A stretch of 64,000 nucleotides of DNA from Mesoterricola sediminis (lineage in GTDB: Bacteria; Acidobacteriota; Holophagae; Holophagales; Holophagaceae). The stretch lies in contig NZ_AP027081.1 in NCBI RefSeq assembly GCF_030295425.1, forward strand, positions 3,331,001 to 3,395,000. Reading direction: 5' to 3'. Positions 19,619-34,976 of this stretch are shown here, one piece after another. Position 1 is the stretch's first letter, and each line of letters begins with the position of its first letter. Below the pieces are notes generated by a model. The model ran no database searches. It had not been told where the DNA came from and worked only from the letters and a program-made list of their open reading frames with translations. The position numbers and the translations under genes were made by a program.

Positions 19619-20677
19619 CTATTTCTTCCAGCGGAGGCGGTGGGTGATGAACACGTCGGAGCAGAGCAGGAAGAACAGCAGGAGCCCCTGGAACACCTTG
19701 GAGATCGAGTAGGGGAGGGCCAGGTACTGCTGGGCCTGCTCCCCGCCCATGTAGAGCAGGGCCATGAGGAGCCCGGAGAGGAAGATGCCGGCCGGCTCCA
19801 GGCGTCCCACGAAGGCGACGATCATGGCGGCGAATCCGTACCCCGGCGAGATGTGCTCCGTGATCTGCCCGACCGGACCGGCCACCTCGCTCACCCCGGC
19901 GATGCCGGCCATGGCGCCGCCGGCCAGCATGCCGATCCACACCGTCCGCCTTGCGGAAAAGCCCGCGTAGCGGCCGGCGTTCTCCGCCTGCCCGGCCACC
20001 TTCATCTGGTACCCCGCGAAGCTGCGGTTCATGAAGATCCACCCGGCCACCAGGGCCCCGATGGCGATGAAGAGGGCCGCGTTCAGGCGGGTCCCCTGGA
20101 GGATGATGGGCAGGATCGCCTTCTCGTGGAACAGCCGGGTCTGGGGGAAGTTGAAACCGTCGGGGTCCATCCAGGGGCCGTGGACGAGCCAGGACACCAG
20201 CAGTTCGGCGATGTAGACGAGCATCAGGCTGGTGAGGATCTCGTTGGCGTTGAAGCGGGTCTTCAGGAAGGCGGGAATGGCCGCCCAGACCATGCCGCCC
20301 AGGGCGCCCGCCGCGATCATGGACGGGAGCAGGAGGGGGCTCGCGCTCCCGTGGAAATGCAGGGCCAGCCCGCCCCCGGCCACGGCGCCCATGAGCAGCT
20401 GCCCCTCGGCGCCGATGTTCCAGATGTTCCCGCGGAAGCCCACCGCCAGGCCCACCGCGCAGAGCATGAGGGGCGTGGCCTTCAGGAAGAGCTCGGCGAT
20501 GCCATACTTGTCCTGGATGGGGTTGAGGAAGAAGACCTTGAACCCCTCCGTGGGGCTCTTGCCCAGGAGGTGGAAGAGGATCATGCCCGACGCCACCATC
20601 AGGGCCACCGCCAGCAGCGGGGACAGGTAGCGCATGGCGCGGGAGGGTTCGGGACGCTGTTCGAACTTAAGCCACAT
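19619..20677 (-). CDS. ABC transporter permease (YufP-like)
   Basis: A 352-residue inner-membrane permease, with GFRGNIWNIGAEGQLLMGA near residue 85 and MKVAGQAENAGRYAGFSARR near 220 as the two family signatures. It is the partner of the 310-residue permease downstream. The 5' end overlaps the ATPase gene by 11 bp, indicating one operon. Confidence 0.87.
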   Translation of the reverse strand: MWLKFEQRPEPSRAMRYLSPLLAVALMVASGMILFHLLGKSPTEGFKVFFLNPIQDKYGIAELFLKATPLMLCAVGLAVGFRGNIWNIGAEGQLLMGAVAGGGLALHFHGSASPLLLPSMIAAGALGGMVWAAIPAFLKTRFNANEILTSLMLVYIAELLVSWLVHGPWMDPDGFNFPQTRLFHEKAILPIILQGTRLNAALFIAIGALVAGWIFMNRSFAGYQMKVAGQAENAGRYAGFSARRTVWIGMLAGGAMAGIAGVSEVAGPVGQITEHISPGYGFAAMIVAFVGRLEPAGIFLSGLLMALLYMGGEQAQQYLALPYSISKVFQGLLLFFLLCSDVFITHRLRWKK

Positions 20678-22259
20678 GGGAACCCTCGCCGCCGGCCGTC
20701 TCGGCCCCGGGCCACAGCCCGCTCATCCACATGCCCACCTCCTCCACCCCGGTCTCGGAGGTCGCCTTCGCCGGGGAGAGCCGCCCCTTGGCGATCACCA
20801 CGAGCCGGTCGCAGATCTCGAACAGCTCGTCGAGCTCCTCGGAGATGACCAGCACCGCCGTTCCCGATTCCCGGAGCGCCAGCAGCTGCTTCCGGATGAA
20901 GGAGGCGGCGCCCACGTCCACGCCCCAGGTGGGCTGGGCGAGGACGAGCACCTTGGGCTCCTGGAGGATCTCCCGGCCCACGATGAACTTCTGGAGGTTG
21001 CCGCCCGAGAGGGACTTGGCCTCCGAGGCCGGTCCGCCGCACTTCACGTCGAACAGGCGGATGCAGTCCTCGGCGAAGGCCCTGGCCGCCTTCCGCCGGA
21101 TCATCCCGAAGCGGAGCATGCTGCGGCGGTAGGCCGTCAGGAGGATGTTCTCGGTCAGGCTCAGGCGGGGAACCGCGCCCCGGCCCAGGCGCTCCTCCGG
21201 GACGAAGCAGAGGCCCAGGGCGCGCCGGCGGGCCGCGTTCATGCGCCCCGCGGGCACCCCGCAGACCTGGATCCAGCGCCGGTCCGCCACGGGCTCCTCG
21301 CCCGAGATGGCCTTGAGGAGTTCCTGCTGGCCGTTGCCGGAGACGCCTGCGATGCCCACGATCTCGCCCGCGCGGACCTCCAGGTTCACGTCCTTCAGGT
21401 CCACCCCGAAGGGGTCCTCCGACTTCAGGGAGAGGCCGTCGATGCGGAGGCGGACGTCCCGGCCCTCCTCGGGCTCGCCGTGGCTGAAGGTGGGGATGTC
21501 CTCCCCGATCATCAGGCGGGCCATGGACTTGGGGGTCTCCTGGGAGGGCACGCAGTGGCCCGTGACCCGGCCGTTCCGGAGCACCGTCGCCGTGTGGCAG
21601 AGCTCCTGGATCTCGTCCAGCTTGTGGCTGATGTAGAGGATGCTGACCCCCTCCGAGGCCAGCTGCCGCAGGGTCTCGAAGAGGCGCCGGACCGCCTGGG
21701 GCGTCAGCACGGAGGTGGGCTCGTCCAGGATGAGGAGGCGGGGATTCTGGAGGAGGCAGCGGATGATCTCCACCCGCTGGCGCTCGCCGACGCTCAGCGC
21801 GTGCACCAGGCGCCGGGGATCCACCGGGAGGCCGTACCGCTCCGAGATCTCCTCGATGCGCCGGGAGAGGCCCTTCAGGTCCAGCTTGCCGGGAATGGCG
21901 AGGGCGACGTTCTGGGCCACCGTCAGCGTCTCGAAGAGGCTGAAGTGCTGGAAGACCATGCCGATGCCCAGGGACCGGGCGTGGGCGGGATCGCGGACGG
22001 TGACCGGGCGGCCCTCCCAGAGGAGCTCGCCTTCGTCCGGCCGGGTGACCCCGTAGATGATCTTCATGAGCGTGGATTTCCCGGCGCCGTTCTCGCCCAG
22101 GACGGCCCGGATCTCGCCCGGCAGGATGGTCAGGTCGACGCCGTCGTTGGCGACCACCGAGGGGTAGACCTTGCGGACTCCCCGGATGGCGAGGCGTGGT
22201 GTGGCTGGGGCCGGCGTGGTCATGGCTGAGTCCGTTCGGGCCTTGTCTGTTTCATTCAT
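20667..22259 (-). CDS. ABC transporter double ATPase (YufO-like)
   Basis: About 530 residues from ATG 22259; an ATG at 22223 is an alternative start, and neither has a strong ribosome-binding site. Two ATPase modules are fused, as in RbsA/YufO. The first has GENGAGKST, LSVGERQRVEI and LLILDEPTSVLTP. The second keeps LSGGNLQKFIVG, but its Walker A is degenerate (GVSGNGQQELL), the usual asymmetry for this family. It powers uptake through the two permeases. It is the first gene of a unit that continues at least through the BMP gene. Confidence 0.88.
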   Translation of the reverse strand: MNETDKARTDSAMTTPAPATPRLAIRGVRKVYPSVVANDGVDLTILPGEIRAVLGENGAGKSTLMKIIYGVTRPDEGELLWEGRPVTVRDPAHARSLGIGMVFQHFSLFETLTVAQNVALAIPGKLDLKGLSRRIEEISERYGLPVDPRRLVHALSVGERQRVEIIRCLLQNPRLLILDEPTSVLTPQAVRRLFETLRQLASEGVSILYISHKLDEIQELCHTATVLRNGRVTGHCVPSQETPKSMARLMIGEDIPTFSHGEPEEGRDVRLRIDGLSLKSEDPFGVDLKDVNLEVRAGEIVGIAGVSGNGQQELLKAISGEEPVADRRWIQVCGVPAGRMNAARRRALGLCFVPEERLGRGAVPRLSLTENILLTAYRRSMLRFGMIRRKAARAFAEDCIRLFDVKCGGPASEAKSLSGGNLQKFIVGREILQEPKVLVLAQPTWGVDVGAASFIRKQLLALRESGTAVLVISEELDELFEICDRLVVIAKGRLSPAKATSETGVEEVGMWMSGLWPGAETAGGEGSHVA

Positions 22260-22536
22260 GAAGCCGCCGGAGGCCAGAGGAACCCCAAGCAGCGGGACGG
22301 ATCGCTGTTGAAAAGTGTAACGGGTGAATGTTGCGATCAGACCGTTAACCGACCAGGACCTCAGATCGGCGAGCGGAACAGGCGGAGAAAGAAACCATGG
22401 ACTGGATATGGGAATGAGGATAAACAAAAAAGCGACCATGATGTCAAATTTTTTTCACTCCCCTGGAACTCCCCCTTCCGCCTGAGCGCAAGTCCAGCGA
22501 TCATCCCAGTTGGCCATTTTCCACCCCGGAGTTCCC
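22260..22536. other. Divergent intergenic region of the purine cluster
   Basis: 277 bp between the ATPase gene (minus) and the aminohydrolase gene (plus). The part around 22380-22460 is AT-rich and holds the minus-strand promoter. From there to the ATPase start is a leader of roughly 150 nt. I looked for a purine-riboswitch core in it and did not recognise one. The plus-strand gene has GGAG at 22528-22531 as its ribosome-binding site. Confidence 0.5.
22419..22447 (-). promoter_or_regulatory. Promoter of the ABC transporter operon
   Basis: On the minus strand a perfect TTGACA (22447-22442), a 17-base spacer and TTTATC (22424-22419) form a sigma-70-type promoter. The -10 matches weakly. It gives a leader of about 150 nt before the ATPase gene. 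Confidence 0.45.
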
Positions 22537-24027
22537 ATGCCCGAGACCCGCGCCCTGGCCTGCCGCTGCCGCTTCCTGCTGCCCCTGGCCGCCCCGGACC
22601 GGGGCCGCCGCATCCAGGACGGGTACCTGCTCGCCGTGGACGGCCGGATCCGCGAGGCCGGCCCCTATGATCCCGAGGTGGGCCGGCGCCTCCGCGAGGC
22701 CTGGGGCGACCGGCTCGAGGTCCTCCACACGCGGCGGGAGGTGCCCTCGGACGACCCCCTTCCCCTCCAGGACATGGTGCTCCTGCCCGCCTTCGTGAAG
22801 GCCCACGGCCACGACCACGAGCAGCCCCTCATCGGCATCGCCCGGGACGAGCCGCTCACCGCCTGGCTGGACCACGCCGTCAACCCCTTCACCGGCTTCC
22901 TCAACGCCCGCCGGGGCGAACTGGCGGCACGCCTCGGGCGCACCCCCCAGGCCCTCACCTACCGCATGGCGCGGATCTGCGACATCCACTACGGCATCAC
23001 CGCCTCCATGGTCCACCACTGCAACTGGAACAAGCACCACCTGGAAGACATCGCGGAGGCCAACGAGGTGGCCGGGACCACGATGATCGTGGCCATCGGC
23101 GGCCAGGACCGCTTCTACGCGCCGGAACTCCTGGACGGGCCCGGCGACGCCCTCGCGCGCCTGGAGAAGGGCCTGGCCCTCCAGGCCCGGTGCGAGCGCA
23201 CCCGCTTCGTGCCCGGTCCCGACCAGTGCTTCTCCAACAGCCGGGAGGCCCTCGTCCCCCAGAAGGCCTGGGCCCGCGCGCACGACACGCTCTTCCACAT
23301 CCACAGCTCCGAGGAGCCGCGGACGACCCGCTGGTTCCGGGAGGCCGTCGAGCCGGGCCTGACCCCCGTCGAGTACTTCCGGGAGATCGGCATCCTCGAC
23401 GCCGGCACCGTGCTGGCCCACCAGGTGAACTGCGGCCCGCGCGACGTGGAGCTGATCGCCGCTTCCGGCGCCGCCGTGGTGCACAATCCCCTGGCCAACA
23501 CCATCCTCGGCTCGGGCATGCCCCCGGTCATCGACCTGCTCCGCGCCGGGGTGCGCGTCGCCGTGTCCACCGACGGCTCCGGTTCGGCCGACAACCAGAA
23601 CATCCTCGCCGCCGCGCGCCTGGCCTCCCAGTACCAGAAGGCCCTCCACCAGGACGCGAGCCTCCTGCCCGCGCAGCAGTGCCTGGAGATGATCACCTCG
23701 GTCCCCGCCTCCATCCTGCGGCTGGACCAGGGCTCCCTCGAGCCGGGCCTCCGCGCCGACTTCGTCCTCGTGGACCTGGCGCGCCCGAACCTCGTCCCCA
23801 CGCGCCTCGACAACGTGGTGGAGAACCTGATCTGGGCCGCGGACGGCTCCGAGATCGACACCGTGGTCGCGGGCGGCCACCTCCTCAAGCACGACGGCCG
23901 GATCCTGCCCTTCCGGGACGGCACCCGCCCGGAGGAGATCCAGCGGGGGATCCAGGCCCTCTCGGCGTGGTTCATGGACTACCGGGCGGCGGCCCCGGAG
24001 GTGCGCGGCACGGGCGCCCACGATTGA
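22537..24027 (+). CDS. Aminohydrolase (guanine deaminase/SsnA-like)
   Basis: A 496-residue amidohydrolase-superfamily enzyme. I use ATG 22537, preceded by CCGGAG, rather than the upstream in-frame ATG at 22510. Metal-site residues are visible: HxH in KAHGHDHEQP near residue 90, His in LFHIHSSEEP, His in LAHQVNCG and Asp in VSTDGSGSADN. This set marks the COG0402 deaminase group (guanine, cytosine and chlorotriazine deaminases). The Lys-rich HxH context is unlike textbook guanine deaminase, so the substrate is uncertain. Divergence from a purine-type transporter and a xanthine dehydrogenase-type enzyme favours a purine such as guanine. Confidence 0.78.
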   Translation: MPETRALACRCRFLLPLAAPDRGRRIQDGYLLAVDGRIREAGPYDPEVGRRLREAWGDRLEVLHTRREVPSDDPLPLQDMVLLPAFVKAHGHDHEQPLIGIARDEPLTAWLDHAVNPFTGFLNARRGELAARLGRTPQALTYRMARICDIHYGITASMVHHCNWNKHHLEDIAEANEVAGTTMIVAIGGQDRFYAPELLDGPGDALARLEKGLALQARCERTRFVPGPDQCFSNSREALVPQKAWARAHDTLFHIHSSEEPRTTRWFREAVEPGLTPVEYFREIGILDAGTVLAHQVNCGPRDVELIAASGAAVVHNPLANTILGSGMPPVIDLLRAGVRVAVSTDGSGSADNQNILAAARLASQYQKALHQDASLLPAQQCLEMITSVPASILRLDQGSLEPGLRADFVLVDLARPNLVPTRLDNVVENLIWAADGSEIDTVVAGGHLLKHDGRILPFRDGTRPEEIQRGIQALSAWFMDYRAAAPEVRGTGAHD

Positions 24028-24255: not shown

Positions 24256-27033
24256 GTGCAGAGAACCCGTGGGTCCCTCACCGTACTCGCGCTCGGGCTC
24301 GTGGCCGTGCCCACGGCCCTCGTGGCCCAGACCAGTTCCACCGCCGCGCTGGCGGGCACCATCCGCGACAGCGCCGGCCACCCCGTCGCCGGGGCCGTCG
24401 TCCGCATCTCCTCCGCCGCCATGATCGGCGGCGAGAAGACCGCGACCACGTCCGCCAACGGCGCCTACCGATTCGCGGCCCTGCCGCCGGGCATCTACAA
24501 GATCGCCGTCTCGGCCAAGGGCCATCCCGCCCTGAACGGCACCGAGGTCCTCGAACTGGGCCTCACGTCCACGGTCAACTGGAAGTTCCCCGCCTCGGCC
24601 AGCGCCACCGTCGAGGTGGTCGGCGCCATGACCACGGTCGAGGACACCGCCGTCTCCATCACCCAGAACTTCGACACCCAGGCCCTCTCCACCCTGCCCG
24701 TCGAGCGCAGCGTCGTCGGCATCATGAATCTGACGCCGGGCGTGAACGATTCCCGGGCCTGGGGCGGCTACCGGGGCGAGAACGCCTACATGATGGACGG
24801 CATCAACATCGGCGATCCCTCCGGCGGCACCCAGTGGATCTTCCCCAACGTCGACTGGTTCTCCGAGGTCCAGGTGGCGGGCCTCGGCGCCAACGCCGAG
24901 TTCGGCGGCTTCATGGGCGGCTTCGTGAACGGCCTGGTGAAGCGGGGCGGCAACACCTTCGAAGGCAGCTTCAACGCCTACTATGCCGATTCCAAGTGGC
25001 AGGCCAAGGGGAAGCAGGACCACCCGATGGTCTCGGCCGCCGACAAGATCATCCCCCCCTCCAAGAACTGGGACGTGGCCTTCAACGTGGGCGGCCCCAT
25101 CGTGAAGGACAAGCTCTGGTTCTTCGCCTCCGCCGAGCGCACCGAGGAGGACAACACCCCCACCGGCGCCCCGACGGCGCAGCGGAACCAGAAGGTGATG
25201 GCCCTCGCCAAGGTCACCTGGGCCGCCAGCCAGAACGCGACCCTCGAGTTCCTGGCCGAGTACGACTACGTGGGCCGGGACCGCCGGTACGTGGACTACA
25301 CGACCATGCCCGAGGCCACCCAGAAGGAGGTCGCGCCCAACCACTCGTACAGCCTCACCTGGACCCAGACCTTCGGCCAGGACAAGGTCCTGACCCTCAA
25401 GGCCTTCTCCTATGGCGGCCGGTATGACCAGCCGGGCATGGGCGGGAACGCCTACTCCGTGGATCTCCAGGATCTCTACGAGTACGACGCCACCAAGGCC
25501 CCGCGCGAGTTCTTCTTCAACTCCACCTACGAGGACTACAACTTCCGCGGCCGGACCACGCTGAGCGCCACCTTCGACTGGTTCAAGACCGGCCTCTTCT
25601 CCGCCGGCGACAGCCACGCCTTCCGGTTCGGCATCGAGCGGGAGCAGGTGTCGGACGAGGAGCTGGAGCGCTTCCCGGGCAACATCAACCTCAACGCCGA
25701 GTTCGACGACGTGGGCGTCTACACGAGCTACATGATCGTCGGCGGCGGCTGGAACGTGCGGCAGCGGGCCGACCGCCTCGCGGCCTTCGTCCAGGACACC
25801 TGGAAGATCAACGACCGCATCACCCTCAACCCGGGCGTGCGCTTCGAGCAGTTCAAGGGGCGGTTCTACGGCGCCAGCAACCTCTGGAACCAGAACACGG
25901 TGGCCCCCCGCTTCGGCTTCGCCATCGGCCTCACCGAGGACCTCAAGACGATGCTGAAGGGCCACTGGGGCCGCTACTACGCCGGCTACTCCACCTACTT
26001 CATCGACCGGGCAATCCAGGACGCCATCCCCATCAAGCAGTACTACGACTGGGCCGACCCGGGCTACCCGTACATCAACCTCTTCGACCGCTCCACCTGG
26101 CCCAGCACCGTCCCCGGCTACGTGGACCCGGTCACGGGCAACCAGAACGACCTCTACCGCACCATCAACGACCTGACCCTCGTCGATCCCGGCGCCAAGC
26201 AGCCCTACACCGACGAGCTGACCTTCGCCCTCGACCACAAGTTCGGCGCCACCTGGAGCGCCGGCCTCTCCTGGGTCAGCCGCGACTTCAAGGACAGCCT
26301 GGTGCGCGTCGACCGCGCCCCCGACCCGAGCGGCTACTGGTCCACCTACGTGAACCCGATCACCGGCGGCAACATCGACTACTACCGCACCCGCCTCTAT
26401 GGCGACGAGCACCAGTACTGGGTCACCAACGCCGGCAGCGAGGGCAAGCGCAAGTACACGGCCACCACCCTGAAGGTCGACCGCCGCCTCGAGAACAACT
26501 GGAGCCTGGGCTTCAGCTACACCCACTCCAAGCTGGAGGGCAACATCCAGCGGGCCGACAGCTACGACAAGGTGTTCTACAACAAGAACACCATGATCAA
26601 CGCCTACGGCAACCTGCCCGGCAACAACGACGACGAGTTCAAGGCCCACGCCCTCTACCAGTTCCCCACCGGCACCCGCATCAGCGCCGTCTACACCTAC
26701 CTGAGCGGCACCCACTGGAACCAGACCTACCGCACCGCCGCCTTCGACGGCACCCGGTACGTGATCAACGTCGAGCCCCTGGGCAGCCGCACCTACCCCA
26801 GCCGCAGCCTGCTGGATCTCCGGCTCACCCAGACCTTCCGGTTCGGCGCCAAGGTCGCCACGGACATCTTCGTGGAGTGCCTGAATGTCCTGAACCGCCA
26901 GGCGGCCACGGCCTACACGACCCGCATCAACACGAACAACAACGCCACGAGCTCCGTCTACAGCTACTACATGTATCCGGAGTCGGTGGATCCGGGCCGC
27001 CGCCTCCAGCTCGGCCTGCGCGTCAATTTCTAG
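24256..27033 (+). CDS. TonB-dependent receptor, Oar-like, with carboxypeptidase-regulatory-like domain
   Basis: A 925-residue outer-membrane receptor from GTG 24256, with AAGGAGG at 24245-24251. The signal peptide is MQRTRGSLTVLALGLVAVPTALVAQ. Residues about 27-110 form a carboxypeptidase-regulatory-like beta-sandwich (LAGTIRDSAGHPVAGAVV, then NGAYRFAALPPGIYKI). A TonB plug follows (LPVERSVVGIMNLTPGVNDS, then YMMDGINIGDPSGG), and the rest is a beta-barrel ending in LQLGLRVNF with the terminal aromatic residue. Such receptors take up large nutrients, often oligopeptides or glycans, with TonB energy. The genes directly downstream degrade beta-aspartyl peptides, so a peptide ligand is the best guess. 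Confidence 0.88.
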   Translation: MQRTRGSLTVLALGLVAVPTALVAQTSSTAALAGTIRDSAGHPVAGAVVRISSAAMIGGEKTATTSANGAYRFAALPPGIYKIAVSAKGHPALNGTEVLELGLTSTVNWKFPASASATVEVVGAMTTVEDTAVSITQNFDTQALSTLPVERSVVGIMNLTPGVNDSRAWGGYRGENAYMMDGINIGDPSGGTQWIFPNVDWFSEVQVAGLGANAEFGGFMGGFVNGLVKRGGNTFEGSFNAYYADSKWQAKGKQDHPMVSAADKIIPPSKNWDVAFNVGGPIVKDKLWFFASAERTEEDNTPTGAPTAQRNQKVMALAKVTWAASQNATLEFLAEYDYVGRDRRYVDYTTMPEATQKEVAPNHSYSLTWTQTFGQDKVLTLKAFSYGGRYDQPGMGGNAYSVDLQDLYEYDATKAPREFFFNSTYEDYNFRGRTTLSATFDWFKTGLFSAGDSHAFRFGIEREQVSDEELERFPGNINLNAEFDDVGVYTSYMIVGGGWNVRQRADRLAAFVQDTWKINDRITLNPGVRFEQFKGRFYGASNLWNQNTVAPRFGFAIGLTEDLKTMLKGHWGRYYAGYSTYFIDRAIQDAIPIKQYYDWADPGYPYINLFDRSTWPSTVPGYVDPVTGNQNDLYRTINDLTLVDPGAKQPYTDELTFALDHKFGATWSAGLSWVSRDFKDSLVRVDRAPDPSGYWSTYVNPITGGNIDYYRTRLYGDEHQYWVTNAGSEGKRKYTATTLKVDRRLENNWSLGFSYTHSKLEGNIQRADSYDKVFYNKNTMINAYGNLPGNNDDEFKAHALYQFPTGTRISAVYTYLSGTHWNQTYRTAAFDGTRYVINVEPLGSRTYPSRSLLDLRLTQTFRFGAKVATDIFVECLNVLNRQAATAYTTRINTNNNATSSVYSYYMYPESVDPGRRLQLGLRVNF

Positions 27034-27105
27034 CCTGTCACGATGGATGGGAAGGGCCGGGCCCCCAGGGGCCCGGCCTCCATCGGCACTTCCATGAGGT
27101 CCGAA

Positions 27106-27927
27106 ATGAAACGGTTCCTGGCCGCCCTGGCCTTCTCCTGCCTTCTCGCCGCAGCCCCGCCCAAGGGCACCCTCGTCATCGTGGGCGGCCACGGTTCGAC
27201 CCCCGACATCATGCACGCCTTCCTCCAGGGCGCCGGGGGCCGGGGCGGGGTGATCGGGATCGTCCCGACGGCCACCGAGGATCCCGAGGGCGAGCTCAAG
27301 GAATGGAAGGAGATCCTGGATCCGGCCGGCATCGAGCTGGTGCCCCTGGACGTGCGCAAGCGCGAGGACGCCAGCGCCAAGGCCATGCTGGACGCCGCGG
27401 CCCGCTGCACGGGGTTCTGGTTCTCCGGCGGCGACCAGTCCCGCGTGGGGGACAAGATCGTGGGCACCCCGCTCCAGAAGCTGATCCTCGGCAAGTACGA
27501 GGGCGGGGCCGTGGTCGGCGGCACCAGCGCCGGGGCGGCCATCATGAGCCGCATCATGCTCACCGGCGAGGACATCTGGGGCAAGGAATCCCTGAGGGAG
27601 CTGGGACCCGACTGCTACGTGACCCGGCCCGGCATGGGCTTCCTGCCTCCCGGCATCATCATCGACCAGCACTTCATCAAGCGGAACCGCCAGAACCGCC
27701 TCCTCAGCCTGGCCATGACCTACCCCGACCACTTCAGCATCGGCATCGACGAGACCACGGCCCTCGTGGTCAAGGACGGCAAGGCGACGGTGCTGGGCGC
27801 CAGCGGCGTCCTCGTCTTCGACCCCGCGGGCATGAAGCTCAAGGACGGCGGCTTCACCGGGCTGAAGATCCACTTCCTCAAGGCCGGGCGCAGGATCGAC
27901 CTGGCGACTCGCCGGGTCCTCAATTGA
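27106..27927 (+). CDS. cphB: Cyanophycinase (peptidase S51), exported
   Basis: A 273-residue protein starting at ATG 27106, chosen because GAGG lies six bases upstream and a signal peptide follows (MKRFLAALAFSCLLAAAPP). GGTSAGAAIMSRIML near residue 135 holds the nucleophilic Ser of S51 peptidases. FWFSGGDQSRV near 105 and IDQHFIKRNRQNRLL near 185 match CphB landmarks. Cyanophycinases cut cyanophycin, the multi-Arg-poly-Asp polymer, into beta-Asp-Arg dipeptides. The signal peptide suggests the extracytoplasmic type (CphE-like). It is followed immediately, with a TTGA overlap, by an M14 peptidase. Confidence 0.85.
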   Translation: MKRFLAALAFSCLLAAAPPKGTLVIVGGHGSTPDIMHAFLQGAGGRGGVIGIVPTATEDPEGELKEWKEILDPAGIELVPLDVRKREDASAKAMLDAAARCTGFWFSGGDQSRVGDKIVGTPLQKLILGKYEGGAVVGGTSAGAAIMSRIMLTGEDIWGKESLRELGPDCYVTRPGMGFLPPGIIIDQHFIKRNRQNRLLSLAMTYPDHFSIGIDETTALVVKDGKATVLGASGVLVFDPAGMKLKDGGFTGLKIHFLKAGRRIDLATRRVLN

Positions 27928-29396
27928 GGCGGCGGCTCCTTCCCGCCCTCCTCGTGGCCGTGCTCGGGGCCCTGCCCGGATCCGCCGCCGTCCCCGCGGA
28001 CCCCCTCCAGCTCAAGGGCACGATCCCGTACGCGGAGATGGAGGCCCTCCTGAAGGCCGCGGCCCGGCCCGGCCTGATCACCGTCACCGAGGAGGCCCGG
28101 ACCCATGAAGGGCGGAAGGTCTACCTGGTCCGCCTCAACCGGGGCGGCGCCAAGGCCCGGTTCCGGGCCCTGCTCTACGCCCAGCAGCACGGCAACGAGC
28201 TCGCGGGGAAGGACGCCCAGCTCTGCCTGATCCAGGCGATCGCCGCGCGCCCCGAACTGCTCCCGGCCGACGTGGACCTCTACCTCATGCCCATGGTCAA
28301 CCCCGACGGGGGCGAGGCCTACCGCAGGACCAACGGCGCCGGCGCGGACCTCAACCGCGACCACATCACCCTCGACCAGCCCGAGACCCAGGCCCTGCAC
28401 CGGGTCGCCCTGCGCGTGCGGCCCCACCTGGCGGTGGACACCCACGAGTTCACCCGGGACGGCAAGGACTGGGAGGCCCGGGGCTGGGACTGCTGGCCCC
28501 TGGTCACCCTCGACGCCCTCAACGTGCCCTGGATCCCCGCGGAGCTCCGGCGGGAGGGCCTCGCCCGGGTCGCCTCCGCGCAGGTCCTCATGGACCGGGC
28601 CGGCATCCCCTTCGCCCGCTACACCGTGGGGGGACTCCCGCCCCTGGACGAGATCCGCCCGTCCACGACGGAGGTGGACGACGGCCGCAACAGCCTGGGC
28701 TGCATGGGCGCCCTCTCCTTCATCATCGAGGCCGGGGTGCGCCGCCAGGCGGGGGCCGCCGACGACCTGCCGCGGCGGGCCGACGCCGTCACCCGCCTCT
28801 ACCGCCACCTCCTGGGCGACGCCGCCTCCCGGCGGCGGGTGGAGGCCCTCTGCGACCGCGCCCGGAAGGCCCCCCTCCCCCCCTTCCTCGCCACCAACTT
28901 CTTCTGGGCGAACGTGGACGGCCAGGTGCCCACGGTGCGCGTGCTCGACCGGGCCACGGGCCGGCCCCTCGATGTGCCCGCGCCGGGCCTGATGACCGAC
29001 CTGGTGGTCAAGCAAAGCGTGGCCACCCCCCGGGCCTACGCCGTGGACGCCGCGGCGGCCCCGGCCTTCCGGACCCTTCTGGACCGCCACGGGATCCGCT
29101 ACGAAGTGCTGGCCGCCGCCGCCTCCCGGAAGGCCGAGGCCTGCCGCCTCCTGCGCTTCGAACCCGATCCGGACGAGCTCTACGGCCGCTACGGCAACCG
29201 CCAGATCGTGCAGCGCGCCGCGGCCCAGGACCACCCCTTCCCTGCCGGTTCCCTGATCGTTCCCCTGGACCAGCCCCTCGCCCGCAACGCGGTGGGGCTC
29301 CTGGAACCCTGCCTGCTCTATGGCATCTACGGGTACCCTGCCTACCGGGCCCTGGTCGGTCCGGACGGCACAACGCCCGTTTGGCGCCTGCCCTGA
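27924..29396 (+). CDS. Exported M14-family metallocarboxypeptidase
   Basis: A 490-residue protein. I start it at TTG 27924, which overlaps the cyanophycinase stop (TTGA) and opens a signal peptide (MRRRLLPALLVAVLGALPGSAA). M14 zinc ligands are visible as HxxE in YAQQHGNELAGK near residue 93 and His in LAVDTHEFTRDG; NPDGGEAYRRTN and ADLNRDHI give the substrate Arg/Asn region, and Glu in FIIEAGVRRQ is the likely general base. About 220 extra residues follow the catalytic domain without a recognised fold. It probably trims peptides in the periplasm in the same pathway as the neighbours. Confidence 0.82.
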   Translation: MRRRLLPALLVAVLGALPGSAAVPADPLQLKGTIPYAEMEALLKAAARPGLITVTEEARTHEGRKVYLVRLNRGGAKARFRALLYAQQHGNELAGKDAQLCLIQAIAARPELLPADVDLYLMPMVNPDGGEAYRRTNGAGADLNRDHITLDQPETQALHRVALRVRPHLAVDTHEFTRDGKDWEARGWDCWPLVTLDALNVPWIPAELRREGLARVASAQVLMDRAGIPFARYTVGGLPPLDEIRPSTTEVDDGRNSLGCMGALSFIIEAGVRRQAGAADDLPRRADAVTRLYRHLLGDAASRRRVEALCDRARKAPLPPFLATNFFWANVDGQVPTVRVLDRATGRPLDVPAPGLMTDLVVKQSVATPRAYAVDAAAAPAFRTLLDRHGIRYEVLAAAASRKAEACRLLRFEPDPDELYGRYGNRQIVQRAAAQDHPFPAGSLIVPLDQPLARNAVGLLEPCLLYGIYGYPAYRALVGPDGTTPVWRLP

Positions 29397-29414
29397 AGGC
29401 ACCGGAGATCCCCC

Positions 29415-30578
29415 ATGCTCCTCATCAAGAACGCCGACATCCATTCCCCCGACGCCCAGGGCCGCTGCGACATCCTGGCCGGCGGCGGGAAGATCCTCCG
29501 CATGCACCCGGACATCCGGATCCCCCGCCGCTACTGCGAGGTGATCGACGCCCGGAACCTCCTCGCGGTGCCCGGCTTCATCGACGGGCACGTCCACATC
29601 ATGGGCGGCGGGGGCGAGGGCGGCCCCGCCACCCGCACCCCGGAACTGGTCCTCAGCGACGCCGTCAAAGGCGGCGTCACCACGGTGGTGGGCTGCCTGG
29701 GCACCGACGGGCACACCCGGACCATGGGCGGCCTCCTGGCCAAGGCCCAGGGCCTGGAGGCGGAGGGCATCAGCACCTTCATCGTCACCGGCCACTACGC
29801 CATCCCGGCGCGGACCCTCACGGGCAGCGTCGAGGAGGACCTGCTCTACATCGACAAGGTGGTGGGCGTGGGCGAGATCGCCCTGTCCGACCACCGCAGC
29901 AGCCAGCCCACGTTCGAGGCCTTCCTGCGCCTGGCCGGGGAGACGCGCCGCGGCGGCATCCTGGCCGGCAAGGCCGGCGTCCTCAACATCCACCTCGGGG
30001 ACGGCCGGCGCGGCCTCGAATACCTCCGGCGGGCCCTGGCCGAGACCGAGATCCCCGCGCGCCAGTTCCTGCCCACCCACATCAACCGCAACCCGGACCT
30101 CTTCGAGGAGGGCGTCGCCTACGCCCTGGGGGGCGGCCTGGTGGACTTCACCACGTCCACGGTCCCCGCCTACCAGGAGACCGGGGAGGTCAAGCCCTCC
30201 CGGGGCCTCAAGCGCATGCTGGACGCCGGCGTGGATCCCGGGCACGTCACCTTCACCTCGGACGGCCAGGGCAGCCTGCCCGACTTCGACGCGGCGGGGC
30301 GCATGCAGGGGCTCGGCATCGGCCGGGTCACGAGCCTCTATGCCGAGGTCCGCGACGCCGTCCTCCAGGAGGGGATCCCCCTGGCCACGGCCCTGCGGGT
30401 CATCACCGCCAACCCGGCGCGCATCTACCGCCTCGCCGGCAAGGGGGGCCTGGCGCCGGGCATGGACGCCGACCTGGTGCTGCTGGACCCCAAGGACCTC
30501 ACGGTCCACACCGTGGTCGCCCGGGGCAGGGTGCTGATGAAGGCCCGCAAGGTCCTCGTCAAGGGGACCTTCGAGTGA
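29415..30578 (+). CDS. iadA: Isoaspartyl dipeptidase (beta-aspartyl-peptidase)
   Basis: A 387-residue cytoplasmic amidohydrolase, close in length to E. coli IadA (390). GFIDGHVHIMGGGGEGGP near residue 58 gives the HxH metal ligands and the family's Gly/Glu loop; TPELVLSDAVKGGVTTVVG follows; HINRNPDLF and FTSDGQGSLPDFD carry later His and Asp ligands. IadA hydrolyses beta-Asp-X dipeptides such as beta-Asp-Arg, the product of cyanophycinase. Where E. coli IadA has the carboxylated Lys in a GVKCAISDHRS context, this protein reads GVGEIALSDHRS, with Glu nearby and no Lys, so the metal bridge may differ. It is followed by the decarboxylase with a GTGA overlap. Confidence 0.88.
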   Translation: MLLIKNADIHSPDAQGRCDILAGGGKILRMHPDIRIPRRYCEVIDARNLLAVPGFIDGHVHIMGGGGEGGPATRTPELVLSDAVKGGVTTVVGCLGTDGHTRTMGGLLAKAQGLEAEGISTFIVTGHYAIPARTLTGSVEEDLLYIDKVVGVGEIALSDHRSSQPTFEAFLRLAGETRRGGILAGKAGVLNIHLGDGRRGLEYLRRALAETEIPARQFLPTHINRNPDLFEEGVAYALGGGLVDFTTSTVPAYQETGEVKPSRGLKRMLDAGVDPGHVTFTSDGQGSLPDFDAAGRMQGLGIGRVTSLYAEVRDAVLQEGIPLATALRVITANPARIYRLAGKGGLAPGMDADLVLLDPKDLTVHTVVARGRVLMKARKVLVKGTFE

Positions 30579-31996
30579 CGGACGTCTTCGGCAGGAGCGC
30601 GGAGGCCTGGGCGGGAGCCCACGGCCTCCCGCTCCACCTGACCTGGCTGCCCCGGGTGCGGGAGAACCTGCGGGCCTTCTCCGGGGTCTTCCGGGAGCTG
30701 TACCCCGACGGCGCCGTCCGGTACGCCGTGAAGGCCTCGTGCCACCCCGCCCTCCTCGCCGCGGTCCGGGAGGAGGGCGCCGGCGCCGACGTGGCCTCGC
30801 CCTTCGAGGCGCGGGCCGCCCTGGAGGCGGGGATGGATCCCCGCGCCCTGGACCTGAACGGCAACTGCAAGGAGGACGCCCTCATCCGCGAGGCGGTGGC
30901 CCGCGACATGCTCGTCGTGGCGGACTCCGTGGAGGAACTGGCCCTCCTGCAGGCCGCCGCGACGACGGAGGGGCGGACGGCACGCGTGCTGCTCCGCCTC
31001 TCCGGCTTTGAGCTGGGCCCCGTCACCGGCGAGGACATTTTCACCGCCGGACCCTGGTCCAAGTTCGGCATCCCCCTGGGGGAGATCCCCGGGGTGCTCG
31101 CCGCCCTGGATACCTGGCCCGCCCTCCGGGTCCTGGGCTTCCACACCCACATCGGCTCCCAGATCACCTCCCCCGAGCCCTACCTGGCCGTCCTCGGCCG
31201 CATGATCGACCTGGGCGCCGATCTCCGGGCGCGGGCCGGGGCCTGCCGGATCCTGAACCTGGGCGGGGGCTTCCCGGTGAACTACCTGGACGCGGCCGGG
31301 TGGGAGGCCTACCGCCGGCGCCTCGCCGCCCGGGACGGGTTCTGCTGGAACGACGGGACGGGGGGCCTGCAGCCCGGGCCCGACGGGCGCCTGGACCCCG
31401 GCGCCTGGCGCGGGGAGGCCTACCATTCCCCCTGGCCCAAGGAGGCCATGCTGCGGGCCGTGCTCCAGGGCGAGGTGCGGGCCTGGGGACGCACCCTGGG
31501 CGCGCGCCAGGCCCTGGCCGCCCTCGGCGGGCCCCGCCTCCTGGTCGAACCGGGCCGCAGCATCGTCGAGGACGCGGGCGCCACCCTCTGCCGCGTGGCC
31601 CACGTGCGCCGGACCGCGGGGGGCCACGCCTTCGTGACGGCCGAGATGGGCGTCCTGGGCCACGGGGACGCCCTCCTGGAGGGCCTCCCCAACCGCTGGT
31701 CCGTGGCCGGCGGCGCCGCGGATCCCGAACCGTTCGAGGCCTTCATCGCGGGCAACCTCTGCTTTTCCGGGGACCTCCTGAGCCGCACCCTCGTGGCCTT
31801 CCACCGCAGGCCCGTCCGGGGCGACCTCCTCGTGGCGCGGGACACCGGCGCCTACACGTCCCACTTCATCGCGAGCAACGCCAACGCCTACCCGAGGATG
31901 CCGCGGATCCTCCTGCACGGGGACGGGCGCGAGACGGTGATGGCCGAGCGGGACCGTTACGAAGGCCTGTTCCCGCAGCCGCAAGGGAAGCGCTGA
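30575..31996 (+). CDS. Fold-type III PLP decarboxylase (DAP/ornithine/arginine decarboxylase family)
   Basis: A 473-residue alanine-racemase-fold decarboxylase starting at GTG 30575, which overlaps the iadA stop. RYAVKASCHP near residue 50 contains the PLP Lys. FHTHIGSQ near 190 and LNLGGGFPVNY near 228 are the PLP-phosphate and glycine-loop motifs, and LVEPGRSIVEDAG near 330 and FSGDLLSRTL near 395 are the C-terminal signatures. Family members decarboxylate diaminopimelate, ornithine, arginine or carboxynorspermidine. Being coupled to IadA, which would release arginine, makes arginine or a derived amino acid plausible. The substrate is unproven. Confidence 0.78.
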   Translation: MTDVFGRSAEAWAGAHGLPLHLTWLPRVRENLRAFSGVFRELYPDGAVRYAVKASCHPALLAAVREEGAGADVASPFEARAALEAGMDPRALDLNGNCKEDALIREAVARDMLVVADSVEELALLQAAATTEGRTARVLLRLSGFELGPVTGEDIFTAGPWSKFGIPLGEIPGVLAALDTWPALRVLGFHTHIGSQITSPEPYLAVLGRMIDLGADLRARAGACRILNLGGGFPVNYLDAAGWEAYRRRLAARDGFCWNDGTGGLQPGPDGRLDPGAWRGEAYHSPWPKEAMLRAVLQGEVRAWGRTLGARQALAALGGPRLLVEPGRSIVEDAGATLCRVAHVRRTAGGHAFVTAEMGVLGHGDALLEGLPNRWSVAGGAADPEPFEAFIAGNLCFSGDLLSRTLVAFHRRPVRGDLLVARDTGAYTSHFIASNANAYPRMPRILLHGDGRETVMAERDRYEGLFPQPQGKR

Positions 31997-32579
31997 CCCC
32001 GTTGTTCCGTGGTTCATGAGGCCCTGCCCGCCCCTTGCAGGGCCACCCTGACTGGACCTGCGGCGTCTTGTGGGTGATAAGCGGAACCCTTTCGCCCACA
32101 CGAAAGGTTCCGGCAACGTCGGGTAAAGGACCCGTACGCCGAGTGCGCAGAGACACCGAGTCACGCGGAGTCTCGGCGCACTCGGTGTACGGGTTTTTTA
32201 CTCACCCTCGCCAGCACGAAGGAACGGGACAAGGTGGTTCCGGTGATTCGATCCACCTCCACGCGATGTCGCAAAGCATGTGCAGAGCCCATGATCCTGG
32301 GGTTTCCCGGTCCGGTCGTTCAAGGACGTTGAGCCACCCCTCCTGGCGGTGACGGGGCAGAAAACGTCTGGGCATCGCACCTCCGGGCCGAGCCTCCCGG
32401 TGCACGCGCCTTGGGGCCTGCGTTCATGCTAACAATTTATCGTTTCCATGAGAGACCAAACAAGTCTTGTTTAAAAACAAAAGAGATAGATACAGTCCGA
32501 ATACTTGCTTCTATAAAATTCTCATTGTCAAACGGGTTGTTCGGCCTACCTTCTAGCTGACACAGCCAGGAGTAGAGCA
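31997..32579. other. 583-bp intergenic region with terminator and AT-rich promoter zone
   Basis: The first third holds the long hairpin terminator. From about 32200 to 32400 there are only short frames on the minus strand (60-67 residues) with no recognisable product. From about 32425 to 32550 the DNA is strikingly AT-rich compared with the window and includes TTGTTTAAAAACAA-like dyad sequence near 32468. TTGTCA (32526-32531) with a 16-base spacer and TACCTT could be a promoter for the protease gene. The short frames may be remnants or chance. Confidence 0.5.
32131..32199 (+). terminator. Long hairpin terminator of the peptide-degradation operon
   Basis: The 24-bp arm 32131-32154 pairs with 32170-32193 with two mismatches around a 15-base loop, followed directly by six T (32194-32199). 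It lies 135 bp after the decarboxylase stop. The stem is much longer than usual for an intrinsic terminator, and its CCGAGTGCG / CGGAGTCTC-type sequence resembles the dispersed tandem-like repeats of some environmental bacteria, so it may also be a mobile repeat copy. Confidence 0.78.
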
Positions 32580-34976
32580 TTGCGTTTTCAAACCCTTCTC
32601 CTCTCTTCATGTCTGGCCTCATGCTTGGTTGCAGGAGGGGACGCCCGGTTCACCCTCCCCGACACGGTCCATCCCGCCGTGCGGACCCTGTCCCCCCTGG
32701 GGGCCGCCGACCCCGGGCAGTCCATGGGCACCATGATCCTGGCCCTGGCCATCGCCCCCGAGGCGCAGGCGCGCCTGGACCGCCTCCTGGCGGACCTGCA
32801 GGACCCCGCCTCCCCCCGGTACCACGCCTGGCTCACGCCCGAGCAGTTCGCGGAGGCCTTCGCGCCGCCCCTTGCGCAGCGCGCCCGGGTCGTGGCCTGG
32901 CTCCAGGCCCAGGGTTTCCTGGTGGAGGGCGTCTCCCGGGGCGGCCACGCCATCGTGTTCTCGGGGGACGTCACGGATGTGCAGCGGGCCTTCGGCGCCC
33001 CCATGCAGCGCTTCTCCTCGGACGGCAGGGAGGTCCTGGCCAACGTCCTCGCCCCCAGCTTCCCCCCCGAGCTGCGGGACCTGGTCCGGGGCGTGGTCTC
33101 CCTCAACGGCTTCGGACGCAACGCGGCGAACATCGGGGCGCGGCCGGTCCCCGCCAACACGCAGCCCGGCGACGCCCACTACCTGGCGCCGGGCGATTTC
33201 GCCACCATCTACGGGCTGCGCTCCCCGGGGGCCGCCGCCTGGGACGGCGCCGGCGCGACGATCGGGATCCTCGGCCGCACCAATCCGGGCCTCAAGGACG
33301 TGAACGCCTTCAGGGGCTTCTATGGCCTGCCTCCGGGCGGGACGAGCCTTGTCCTGAACGGGCCCGATCCGGGCAGCATCTCCTGGGGCGAGGACCTGGA
33401 GGCCAACCTGGACATGCAGTGGGCCGGCGCGACGGCCCCCGGCGCCGCCATCCGGTTCATCTGCACCGCCTCCACCCCCTCCACCGACGGCATCGACCTC
33501 TCCGCCCTCCGCGCCGTCGACGAGAACGTGTCGGACGTCATCAGCGTGAGCTTCGGCGCCTGCGAGGATGCCATGCAGTACTCCGGCGCCTCCTTCTACG
33601 CGACCCTCTGGGCCCAGGCCGCCGCCCAGGGCATCACCGTGTGCGTGGCGTCCGGGGATGCCGGCGTGGCCGGGTGCGATCCCGCGTCGAACCCCAGCGG
33701 CAGCAGGACGGGGGTCAACGGGCTCGCCTCCACCGCCCACAACGTGGCCGTGGGCGGCACCCAGTTCCTGGACAAGCAGGGCACGTGGTGGCGCCCCACG
33801 AACGACCCCGACGGAACCTCGGCCCTCGGGTACATCCCCGAAGCGGCCTGGAACGAGAGCGGGGCCGCGGGCGGCGCGGGCCTCTGGGCCACGGGCGGCG
33901 GCACGTCCCTCATCTGGCCCCTGCCCGCGTGGCAGGCGGGGCTCGGCTTCCCCCTGGACAGTGGGCGCGCCATCCCGGACGTCTCCTTCACGGCGGCCCT
34001 CCACGACGGCTACCTGGTGCGCTCCGGGGGCTCGCTCTACCTGGTGGGGGGCACCTCGGCCTCCACCCCCGCCTTCGCCGGGATCCTGGCCCGGCTCGTC
34101 CAGCGGTCCGGACAGCGCCTCGGGAACCTCAACCGGCAGCTGTACGGCCTGGCCCTGCAGCAGGCCGCGGGGAACGGCCCGGCCGTCTTCCACGACATCA
34201 CCGTGGGGGACAATGCGGTGCCCGGGGTGGCCGGGTTCGCCGCGGTGCCCGGGTACGACGCGGCGACGGGCCTCGGCAGCCTGGACGCCGGAGCCTTCCT
34301 GGACGCCGCGGCGGGGCTGGGCGTGACGCCCCAGGCCGTGGACGAGGTGATCAAGCTGGGCGGCCCCTGCGCCATGGCCTACGCGGTCCCCGCCGGGACG
34401 GTGCCCGCCACCTTCCGGTTGGCCGGCGGTGAACTCCCGCCCGGCCTGACCCTCGCGGCGGACGGGACCCTGACCGGGACCTGCGCCGTGGCGGGGACGT
34501 ACACCTTCGCCGTGCGGGCCACCGATGCCCTGGGCCGGAGCGGGACGGTGCTGAGCTCCATCCAGGTGGGTCCCGTGGAGATCACCACCAGCGCCATCCT
34601 GCCCGGCCAGCTCACCGGCTCCACCGTGACCTACAGCGCCTCCGTGGTCGGCGCCCTGGACGGCCGCGTCACCTGGTCGGCTTCGGGGGGCACGGTCACG
34701 CCGGTGGACGGCAACCGCGCGACCTTCACCGCCGCCGCCCCCGGCACCTACCAGGTCACCGCCGCGTCCGTCGCCGATCCCCGGCAGACGTCCAGCATCA
34801 CCGTCAACGTCCACGGCGCCGCCACGGTGGAAGCCGGCGGCGGCTCCCTGTCCGGTCTGGACGTGCTGGCCATGGCCGGCCGGATGGGCACGCGCAACGC
34901 CGCCCTGGATCTGGACGGCGATGGCCTCGTCGCCGATTCCGACCTCCAAGAGCTCCTCTCCCTCCTCGGGTGGTGA
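32580..34976 (+). CDS. Secreted S53 protease (kumamolisin/sedolisin-type) with Ig-like and dockerin-like tail
   Basis: A 798-residue secreted serine-carboxyl protease starting at TTG 32580, with AGGAG at 32568-32572 and a signal peptide (MRFQTLLLSSCLASCLVAGG). An activation pro-domain (residues about 25-180) precedes the catalytic domain. The triad reads Glu274 and Asp278 (GEDLEANLDMQWAGA) and Ser493 (GGTSASTPAFAG); ISVSFGACED likely holds the oxyanion Asp. After residue 580 come putative-Ig-like domains (FRLAGGELPPGLTLAADG), and the last 25 residues (LDLDGDGLVADSDLQELL) look like a dockerin or EF-hand repeat with a DxDxDG calcium loop. S53 enzymes work at acidic pH, outside the cell. The next gene is a lipoprotein 2 bp downstream. 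Confidence 0.88.
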   Translation: MRFQTLLLSSCLASCLVAGGDARFTLPDTVHPAVRTLSPLGAADPGQSMGTMILALAIAPEAQARLDRLLADLQDPASPRYHAWLTPEQFAEAFAPPLAQRARVVAWLQAQGFLVEGVSRGGHAIVFSGDVTDVQRAFGAPMQRFSSDGREVLANVLAPSFPPELRDLVRGVVSLNGFGRNAANIGARPVPANTQPGDAHYLAPGDFATIYGLRSPGAAAWDGAGATIGILGRTNPGLKDVNAFRGFYGLPPGGTSLVLNGPDPGSISWGEDLEANLDMQWAGATAPGAAIRFICTASTPSTDGIDLSALRAVDENVSDVISVSFGACEDAMQYSGASFYATLWAQAAAQGITVCVASGDAGVAGCDPASNPSGSRTGVNGLASTAHNVAVGGTQFLDKQGTWWRPTNDPDGTSALGYIPEAAWNESGAAGGAGLWATGGGTSLIWPLPAWQAGLGFPLDSGRAIPDVSFTAALHDGYLVRSGGSLYLVGGTSASTPAFAGILARLVQRSGQRLGNLNRQLYGLALQQAAGNGPAVFHDITVGDNAVPGVAGFAAVPGYDAATGLGSLDAGAFLDAAAGLGVTPQAVDEVIKLGGPCAMAYAVPAGTVPATFRLAGGELPPGLTLAADGTLTGTCAVAGTYTFAVRATDALGRSGTVLSSIQVGPVEITTSAILPGQLTGSTVTYSASVVGALDGRVTWSASGGTVTPVDGNRATFTAAAPGTYQVTAASVADPRQTSSITVNVHGAATVEAGGGSLSGLDVLAMAGRMGTRNAALDLDGDGLVADSDLQELLSLLGW

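Follow-up and report, generated by a model that had tools for sequence, protein, structure and literature searches.

Results and discussion

Five genes of Mesoterricola sediminis (Acidobacteriota, Holophagaceae) form an operon that probably serves the scavenging of cyanophycin, or of very similar beta-aspartyl polymers or peptides, released by other organisms. They occupy positions 24256–31996 of the stretch analysed (64,000 nucleotides; assembly GCF_030295425.1, contig NZ_AP027081.1, 3,331,001 to 3,395,000), hereafter the window. An original prediction made from the sequence alone had placed a TonB receptor, a cyanophycinase, an M14 peptidase, an isoaspartyl dipeptidase (IadA) and a decarboxylase on one strand with TTGA and GTGA overlaps, and both coordinates and families were confirmed. 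Its proposal of external scavenging, with uptake coupled to an exported cyanophycinase and cleavage by IadA, was supported as well: the cyanophycinase, a member of peptidase family S51, appears to be of an exported type, and the genome holds no cphA gene above cut-off. The scavenging core of the interpretation was thus supported, while diaminopimelate (DAP) as a candidate substrate of the decarboxylase became unlikely, residues that recognise DAP being lost. All five genes lie on the + strand:

24256..27033, + strand: TonB-dependent Oar-like outer-membrane receptor; GTG start; PF13620, PF25183 and PF00593 above cut-off
27094..27927, + strand: putatively exported S51 exo-cyanophycinase, CphE-like; TIGR02069; N-terminal signal peptide read by eye
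27924..29396, + strand: putatively exported M14 metallopeptidase; TTG start; PF00246
29415..30578, + strand: predicted cytosolic isoaspartyl dipeptidase IadA (M38); TIGR01975
30575..31996, + strand: fold-III pyridoxal phosphate (PLP) decarboxylase, here termed DC; GTG start; PF02784 and PF00278
32130..32200, + strand: hairpin of very high stability with a T run behind it, likely transcript end (folding)

Enzymes and receptor of the operon

Two of the enzymes, encoded about 1.5 kilobases (kb) apart, scored far above their curated cut-offs: S51 matched the cyanophycinase model TIGR02069 with 159.9 bits (cut-off 126.6) and IadA the beta-aspartyl-peptidase model TIGR01975 with 513.7 bits (cut-off 331.25). 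The nearest solved structures to S51 were cyanophycinases, the closest PDB entry being 3en0 (CphB). We compared nine catalytic and pocket positions, which we take to be those of the CphB structure paper, and found all of them retained in the window protein (Q101, S132, D172, Q173, H174, R178, R180, R183 and E201). The same nine residues were kept in 27 of 27 S51 sequences compared; since they are invariant even in distant members, they demonstrate an intact site and do not separate the S51 types from one another. A separation did emerge from the N-termini, which were signal-like by eye in all 15 receptor-linked S51 proteins and in none of the five CphA-linked ones, and from a tree of 28 sequences, in which the five CphA-linked proteins together with CphB split from the 22 receptor-linked or other proteins at a support of 100/98. 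The 15 receptor-linked proteins formed a single group (100/100). Judged by these sequence features, the window S51 would belong to the exported group and not to the one linked with CphA.

The M14 protein passed the Pfam cut-off for PF00246 and carries the zinc-binding and catalytic motifs HGNE, LNRD, DTHE and IIE. Its AlphaFold model (mean predicted local distance difference test, pLDDT, 82.4) resembles M14 metallocarboxypeptidases, with TM-scores of about 0.4 when normalised to the query length and about 0.5 when normalised to that of the target. M14 carboxypeptidases were also its nearest structures. An M14-annotated cyanophycin dipeptide hydrolase, for which hydrolysis of beta-Asp-Arg/Lys and a relation to the succinylglutamate desuccinylase/aspartoacylase branch would be the marks, is named in the part of PMC10206079 considered here (all papers given by PMC number were covered in part, and statements about them refer to those parts); a literature search for M14-type dipeptide hydrolases returned mentions only. 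For IadA, isoaspartyl dipeptidases were the nearest solved structures. Comparison by eye with the metal and substrate residues named in PMC10206079 showed the motifs HxH, E, T, GE, H, H, R and D to be present, including positions 59, 64, 93, 153, 191, 220 and 281.

The receptor combines a carboxypeptidase-regulatory domain (PF13620) with an Oar-type beta-barrel (PF25183) and PF00593. It precedes S51 in 14 of 14 relative loci read, one of them a fragment at a contig end, and is found at the same place in relatives with 38–66% identity. Among the loci L040–L049, the receptor occurs in two forms, 38–39% identical to that of the window in five loci and 44–66% in the other five. As the enzymes behind it stay at 53–72% identity in these loci, an exchange of the receptor at a fixed place appears possible.

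Conservation in the family and the phylum

An S51 relative was detected in 85 of the 297 genomes of our phylum sample (E-value up to 1e-15). Within the family, 34 of 77 genomes carry the window's S51 type in 35 places (47–100% identity), and six further S51 places in six genomes belong to the CphA-linked type (34–36% identity). Judged by gene coordinates, 33 of the 35 places have M14 behind S51, and 31 of these 33 also have IadA behind M14, so that the order S51–M14–IadA recurs in 31 of 35, more often than chance would give. The other four comprise contig breaks in three genomes (G318, G319 and G302) and one genome (G310) in which IadA follows S51 directly, without M14. The decarboxylase is not part of this conserved set. 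A YfcC-like carrier stands behind IadA in 27 of the 35 places and DC in five, never both: DC, found in this genus only, occupies the place held by the transporter in other members of the family. The carrier (PF03606) scored 373.5 bits against the model of the putative basic amino acid antiporter YfcC (cut-off 500). In one genome (G321), contigs C44 and C56 hold two S51–M14–IadA sets, and behind each of them the carrier gene follows at a distance of about 1.3 kb. Downstream of the operon in relatives we also noted an M28-like peptidase, named by eye from its sequence. Seven more distant S51 loci of the phylum (L050–L056) were read as well: a receptor match lies near S51 in L050, L052 and L053, M14 is present in L052 and L053, and IadA stands behind S51 in L056.

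The original prediction had listed a cphA gene among the findings that would refute it. The genome of M. sediminis is a single contig of 4,524,604 bases (100% complete), and no match to the cyanophycin synthetase model exceeded the curated cut-off of 850 bits in it; the best matches (42.8 and 40 bits) were MurE/MurF. Internal storage turnover was thus rejected as a role of the operon. CphA above cut-off was found in five of 93 genomes of the class. In one of them (G252), a CphA–S51 storage locus and a receptor-led S51–M14–IadA–carrier operon coexist on different contigs, while another (G332) encodes CphA with S51 and IadA proteins 32% and 44% identical to those of the window. The storage loci of the family (L091 and L092) share S51 with the window and, in L092, also IadA, but they include CphA, their S51 lacks a signal peptide, and the identities amount to about 32% for S51 and 44% for IadA. 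As a side observation, genes in three members of the genus (G337:C1:899827, G338:C249:4995 and G341:C1:1370651) match only positions of about 153–470 of the cyanophycin synthetase model with about 230 bits; these partial matches lack the ligase half, and none occurs in the genome of M. sediminis at that threshold.

Proposed pathway and competing readings

Given the lack of cphA above cut-off, the conserved order of the operon and an S51 of the exported type with the CphB residues, scavenging from outside appears to be the best reading. According to the mechanism we propose, the Oar-like receptor would bind intact or fragmented polymer at the outer membrane, exported S51 would remove beta-Asp-Arg (or beta-Asp-Lys) dipeptides and exported M14 would trim or cut the part left by S51. 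The dipeptides would then cross the inner membrane; relatives encode the YfcC-like carrier beside IadA, and M. sediminis has it elsewhere in the genome. IadA would split the dipeptides into aspartate and the second amino acid, and in this genus the added DC would most likely form an amine from the basic amino acid thus released or from a closely derived compound. The carrier gene of M. sediminis (C1:1089561–1090940) is 66% identical to that of the relatives. It stands in front of a large M14 gene encoding 864 amino acids (L087, 9532–13552), an adjacency that may point to products of M14 enzymes as the cargo of the carrier.

Several points weigh against cyanophycin scavenging. IadA enzymes from cyanophycin clusters are promiscuous (PMC10206079), and other beta-aspartyl peptides would therefore serve as well. 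The nine S51 residues would speak for a competent site rather than for a ligand, peptide uptake by the receptor is our assumption, no inner-membrane carrier lies within the operon itself, and the known two-step route needs no M14. Furthermore, two of the 34 operon-bearing genomes (G252 and G310) do have cphA.

The same promiscuity would suit a broader role, in which beta-aspartyl (isoaspartyl) peptides of any origin, including aged protein and dead cells, are scavenged and cyanophycin is only one source among others, S51 and M14 trimming in the periplasm and IadA clearing the dipeptides. The carboxypeptidase-like fold of M14, its nearly constant position behind S51, an S53 protease gene downstream (32580–34976) and the M28-like peptidase of the relatives would fit such a role. 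However, S51 passes the cut-off of the cyanophycinase model with the CphB residues intact, and a strong hairpin precedes the S53 gene, which is thus probably a separate unit. We consider this broader role rather unlikely.

Another reading concerns the direction of transport. In Myxococcus, Oar is linked to the export of the protease PopC, and the receptor of the window, with its carboxypeptidase-regulatory domain and Oar-type barrel, is adjoined by exported peptidases, also in L052 and L053; it might export these co-encoded enzymes instead of taking up peptides. The gene data would fit uptake as well as export. Receptors of the Oar-like kind are common in Acidobacteriota, and we regard an export function as very improbable.

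Relation to known systems

Clustering of these genes has precedents. Of 52 genomes that encode a cyanophycinase and IaaA/IadA but lack cphA1, 45 have these genes in a cluster, and such clusters were called scavenging loci (Sharon and Schmeing 2023, PMC10206079). The cyanophycin utilisation locus (Ben Hania et al. 2017, as cited in PMC10206079) likewise combines a clustered cyanophycinase and isoaspartyl dipeptidase with the absence of cphA1 and a transporter in or near the cluster. In the window we find the same: a cyanophycinase–IadA cluster, no cphA1 and a transporter, the TonB receptor, in the cluster. Unlike the published locus, it is led by a TonB-dependent Oar-like receptor and has an exported M14 in nearly every copy; in the genus of the window, it ends with a decarboxylase in place of a carrier. 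In Citromicrobium sp. JLT1363, a TonB receptor is close to a cyanophycinase as well and cyanophycin was proposed as its ligand, but the portion of PMC3400609 covered mentions no IadA, M14 or decarboxylase. Closer in taxonomy, Ca. Sulfomarinibacter (Acidobacteriota) encodes cyanophycinases with signal peptides, no cyanophycin synthetase and, in one metagenome-assembled genome, IadA, and external use was inferred (PMC8528874). It belongs to another class of the phylum, however, and the sections of that paper considered describe no receptor-led operon with M14. Within the Holophagaceae, Acidiparvus differs from other members in lacking cyanophycinase (PMC11561045), and the literature on this family and cyanophycin does not describe the present operon in the parts covered.

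On the scavenging reading, the operon represents the published cyanophycin utilisation locus in a version with a TonB receptor, and no new kind of system. It provides a conserved, testable gene set for the use of a cyanobacterial or bacterial nitrogen polymer by Holophagaceae, and one family displays the contrast between storage, where CphA is paired with a cytosolic S51, and scavenging, where a receptor is paired with an exported S51. What is new here is DC: it was found in this genus only, has lost DAP-recognising residues, and its paralogue adjoins another receptor and two putatively exported dipeptide epimerases. DC would matter more than the operon itself: two peptide-scavenging operons of one genus share this uncharacterised enzyme, a fold-III decarboxylase whose pocket is altered, and a search for new activities that form amines or peptides could well begin with it.

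The decarboxylase DC

Both domains of DC (PF02784 and PF00278) were above the Pfam cut-offs, and its best NCBIfam match was LysA (TIGR01048) with 200.1 bits, below the cut-off of 297.9. The gene is present in M. sediminis and in four of five other genomes of the genus, and no match at an E-value up to 1e-30 occurred in the 296 other genomes of the phylum sample. A contig scan with DC returned one locus only (L057), with the same content as G338:C170 of the same genus, and plasmid protein searches yielded no close relative, the best full-length matches being of the Y4yA or LysA type at 25–31% identity. In a tree, DC and the Y4yA enzymes fell on one side, and LysA, PEP1 and an ornithine decarboxylase-like enzyme on the other (99/97, with a long-branch warning).

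DC has the fold-III PLP architecture of the Y4yA/SbnH-type and LysA/DokD decarboxylases and shares with them the active-site Lys, EPGR, Cys and Tyr, with Arg249 kept as the EPGR arginine. Its motifs differ from those of LysA (HADALLEG-like and CFSGD versus RPAMY and CESGD/CETGD). From the Y4yA enzymes it differs in sequence (about 26–28% identity) and in its neighbours, which are peptide enzymes and not siderophore genes: a cysteine-synthase/SbnA-like gene was located nearby in five of five Y4yA loci and an IucA/IucC gene in three (Sinorhizobium, Serratia and Agrobacterium), whereas SbnA/IucA-type siderophore neighbours are absent around the window DC. Among the papers listed by a literature search on Y4yA, none used the word.

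DAP had been one of three substrate candidates in the original prediction. The Thermotoga DAP decarboxylase contacts the distal amino group of its substrate through Glu315 and the distal carboxylate through Arg249 and Arg285 (PMC8277567). All seven DC proteins replace Arg285 of T. maritima LysA by Asp, the next pocket Tyr by Glu, and Glu315 by Phe. With the DAP-recognising residues gone, DAP appears unlikely as a substrate, and our first guess is freed arginine. The acidic pocket of DC, together with an acidic residue of the epimerases described below, would fit a cationic partner such as arginine; as Y4yA enzymes share one of the two pocket acids, this is only a weak pointer. DC was rejected as the only arginine decarboxylase of the genome, for a SpeA-like gene (630 amino acids) matches at C1:1659656–1660573. 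Agmatine deiminase and arginase/agmatinase families are also encoded, at C1:880893 and C1:2214541, so that arginine breakdown need not depend on DC.

The second DC copy was found in genomes G341 (L082, 3285–11135) and G338 (L084), 65–67% identical and part of another operon. The order there is a dipeptide-epimerase-like gene, a TonB receptor, a second epimerase, DC and an AraC-type regulator; DC overlaps the second epimerase gene by four bases, both epimerase-like proteins have an export-like N-terminus, and the compared parts are 89–96% identical between the two genomes. Against the NCBIfam model of L-Ala-D/L-Glu epimerase, the two epimerases scored 244.1 and 236.7 bits (cut-off 500), and both have an acidic residue at the position of Bacillus Arg24, a residue that presumably has a role in the Bacillus epimerase. 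Murein-peptide scavenging, prompted by the likeness to L-Ala-D/L-Glu epimerases, was rejected on these two grounds. Among the papers listed by our literature search for cationic dipeptide epimerases, none used that term.

The proximity to epimerases invites the idea that DC acts on peptide-derived D-amino acids and, in the IadA operon, would clear D-residues of beta-linked peptides. The LysA and DokD relatives act at D-centres, and Foldseek searches with the DC model ranked DAP and D-Orn/D-Lys decarboxylases first, with DokD structures among the best. Moreover, the E315F and E315L variants of the Thermotoga enzyme accept D-Phe and D-norleucine (PMC8277567). Cyanophycin, however, contains L-arginine (PMC10206079), confidence in the DC model is moderate (76.1, pocket loops under a pLDDT of 50), and the tree, albeit with long branches, puts DC on the Y4yA side and not with LysA. 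We hold a D-amino acid substrate to be improbable.

It also seems quite improbable, yet worth stating, that DC founds a new family that decarboxylates an isopeptide. The related enzymes SbnH and FslC act on amino acids with an amide-bound side chain. Since the aspartate of beta-Asp-Arg has a free alpha-amino and a free alpha-carboxyl group, the dipeptide could be decarboxylated to beta-alanyl-arginine in a side route competing with IadA. The acidic pocket, where LysA has Arg and Tyr, would be consistent with this activity, as would the association of the paralogue with dipeptide epimerases that carry the acidic residue at the Arg24 position.

Finally, DC could be the LysA of lysine biosynthesis, placed here by chance. 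TIGR01048 is its best match and the genome has no gene above the LysA cut-off; DC itself stays below it, however, and its pocket substitutions are those given above. In the genome search, the LysA-like gene C1:893440–894516 reached 222.1 bits as opposed to 138.4 and 59.8 for two pieces of DC (though it too lacks the Glu), and G338 and G341 carry a LysA-like gene in addition to two DC copies. An identity of DC with LysA is therefore scarcely credible. In the best LysA-like gene itself (L102), CTSLD replaces CESGD by eye; with no LysA above cut-off, lysine synthesis in the genus may use a divergent enzyme.

Transcript boundaries and neighbouring genes

The GTG start of the receptor (24256) is preceded by a good ribosome site. 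S51 starts at ATG 27094, or alternatively at ATG 27043, and ends at 27927; the TTG of M14 (27924) overlaps its stop (TTGA), and the GTG of DC (30575) overlaps the stop of IadA (GTGA). A scan for consensus promoters detected no promoter, and its single terminator match was no better than shuffles. The hairpin at 32130–32200, in turn, folds with −52.8 kcal/mol (z −9.0; 0 of 200 shuffles equally good). Together with the T run, it indicates that the transcript probably ends after DC, leaving the S53 gene at 32580 separate. With an outer stem of 19 pairs and an inner stem, the hairpin exceeds most terminators in length and may be a genome repeat element. Upstream of the operon (20667–24027) lie a deaminase-kind amidohydrolase gene, which reached none of the listed NCBIfam cut-offs, and a divergent sugar/nucleoside-type ATP-binding cassette ATPase; both keep their position in the four other members of the genus that were read.

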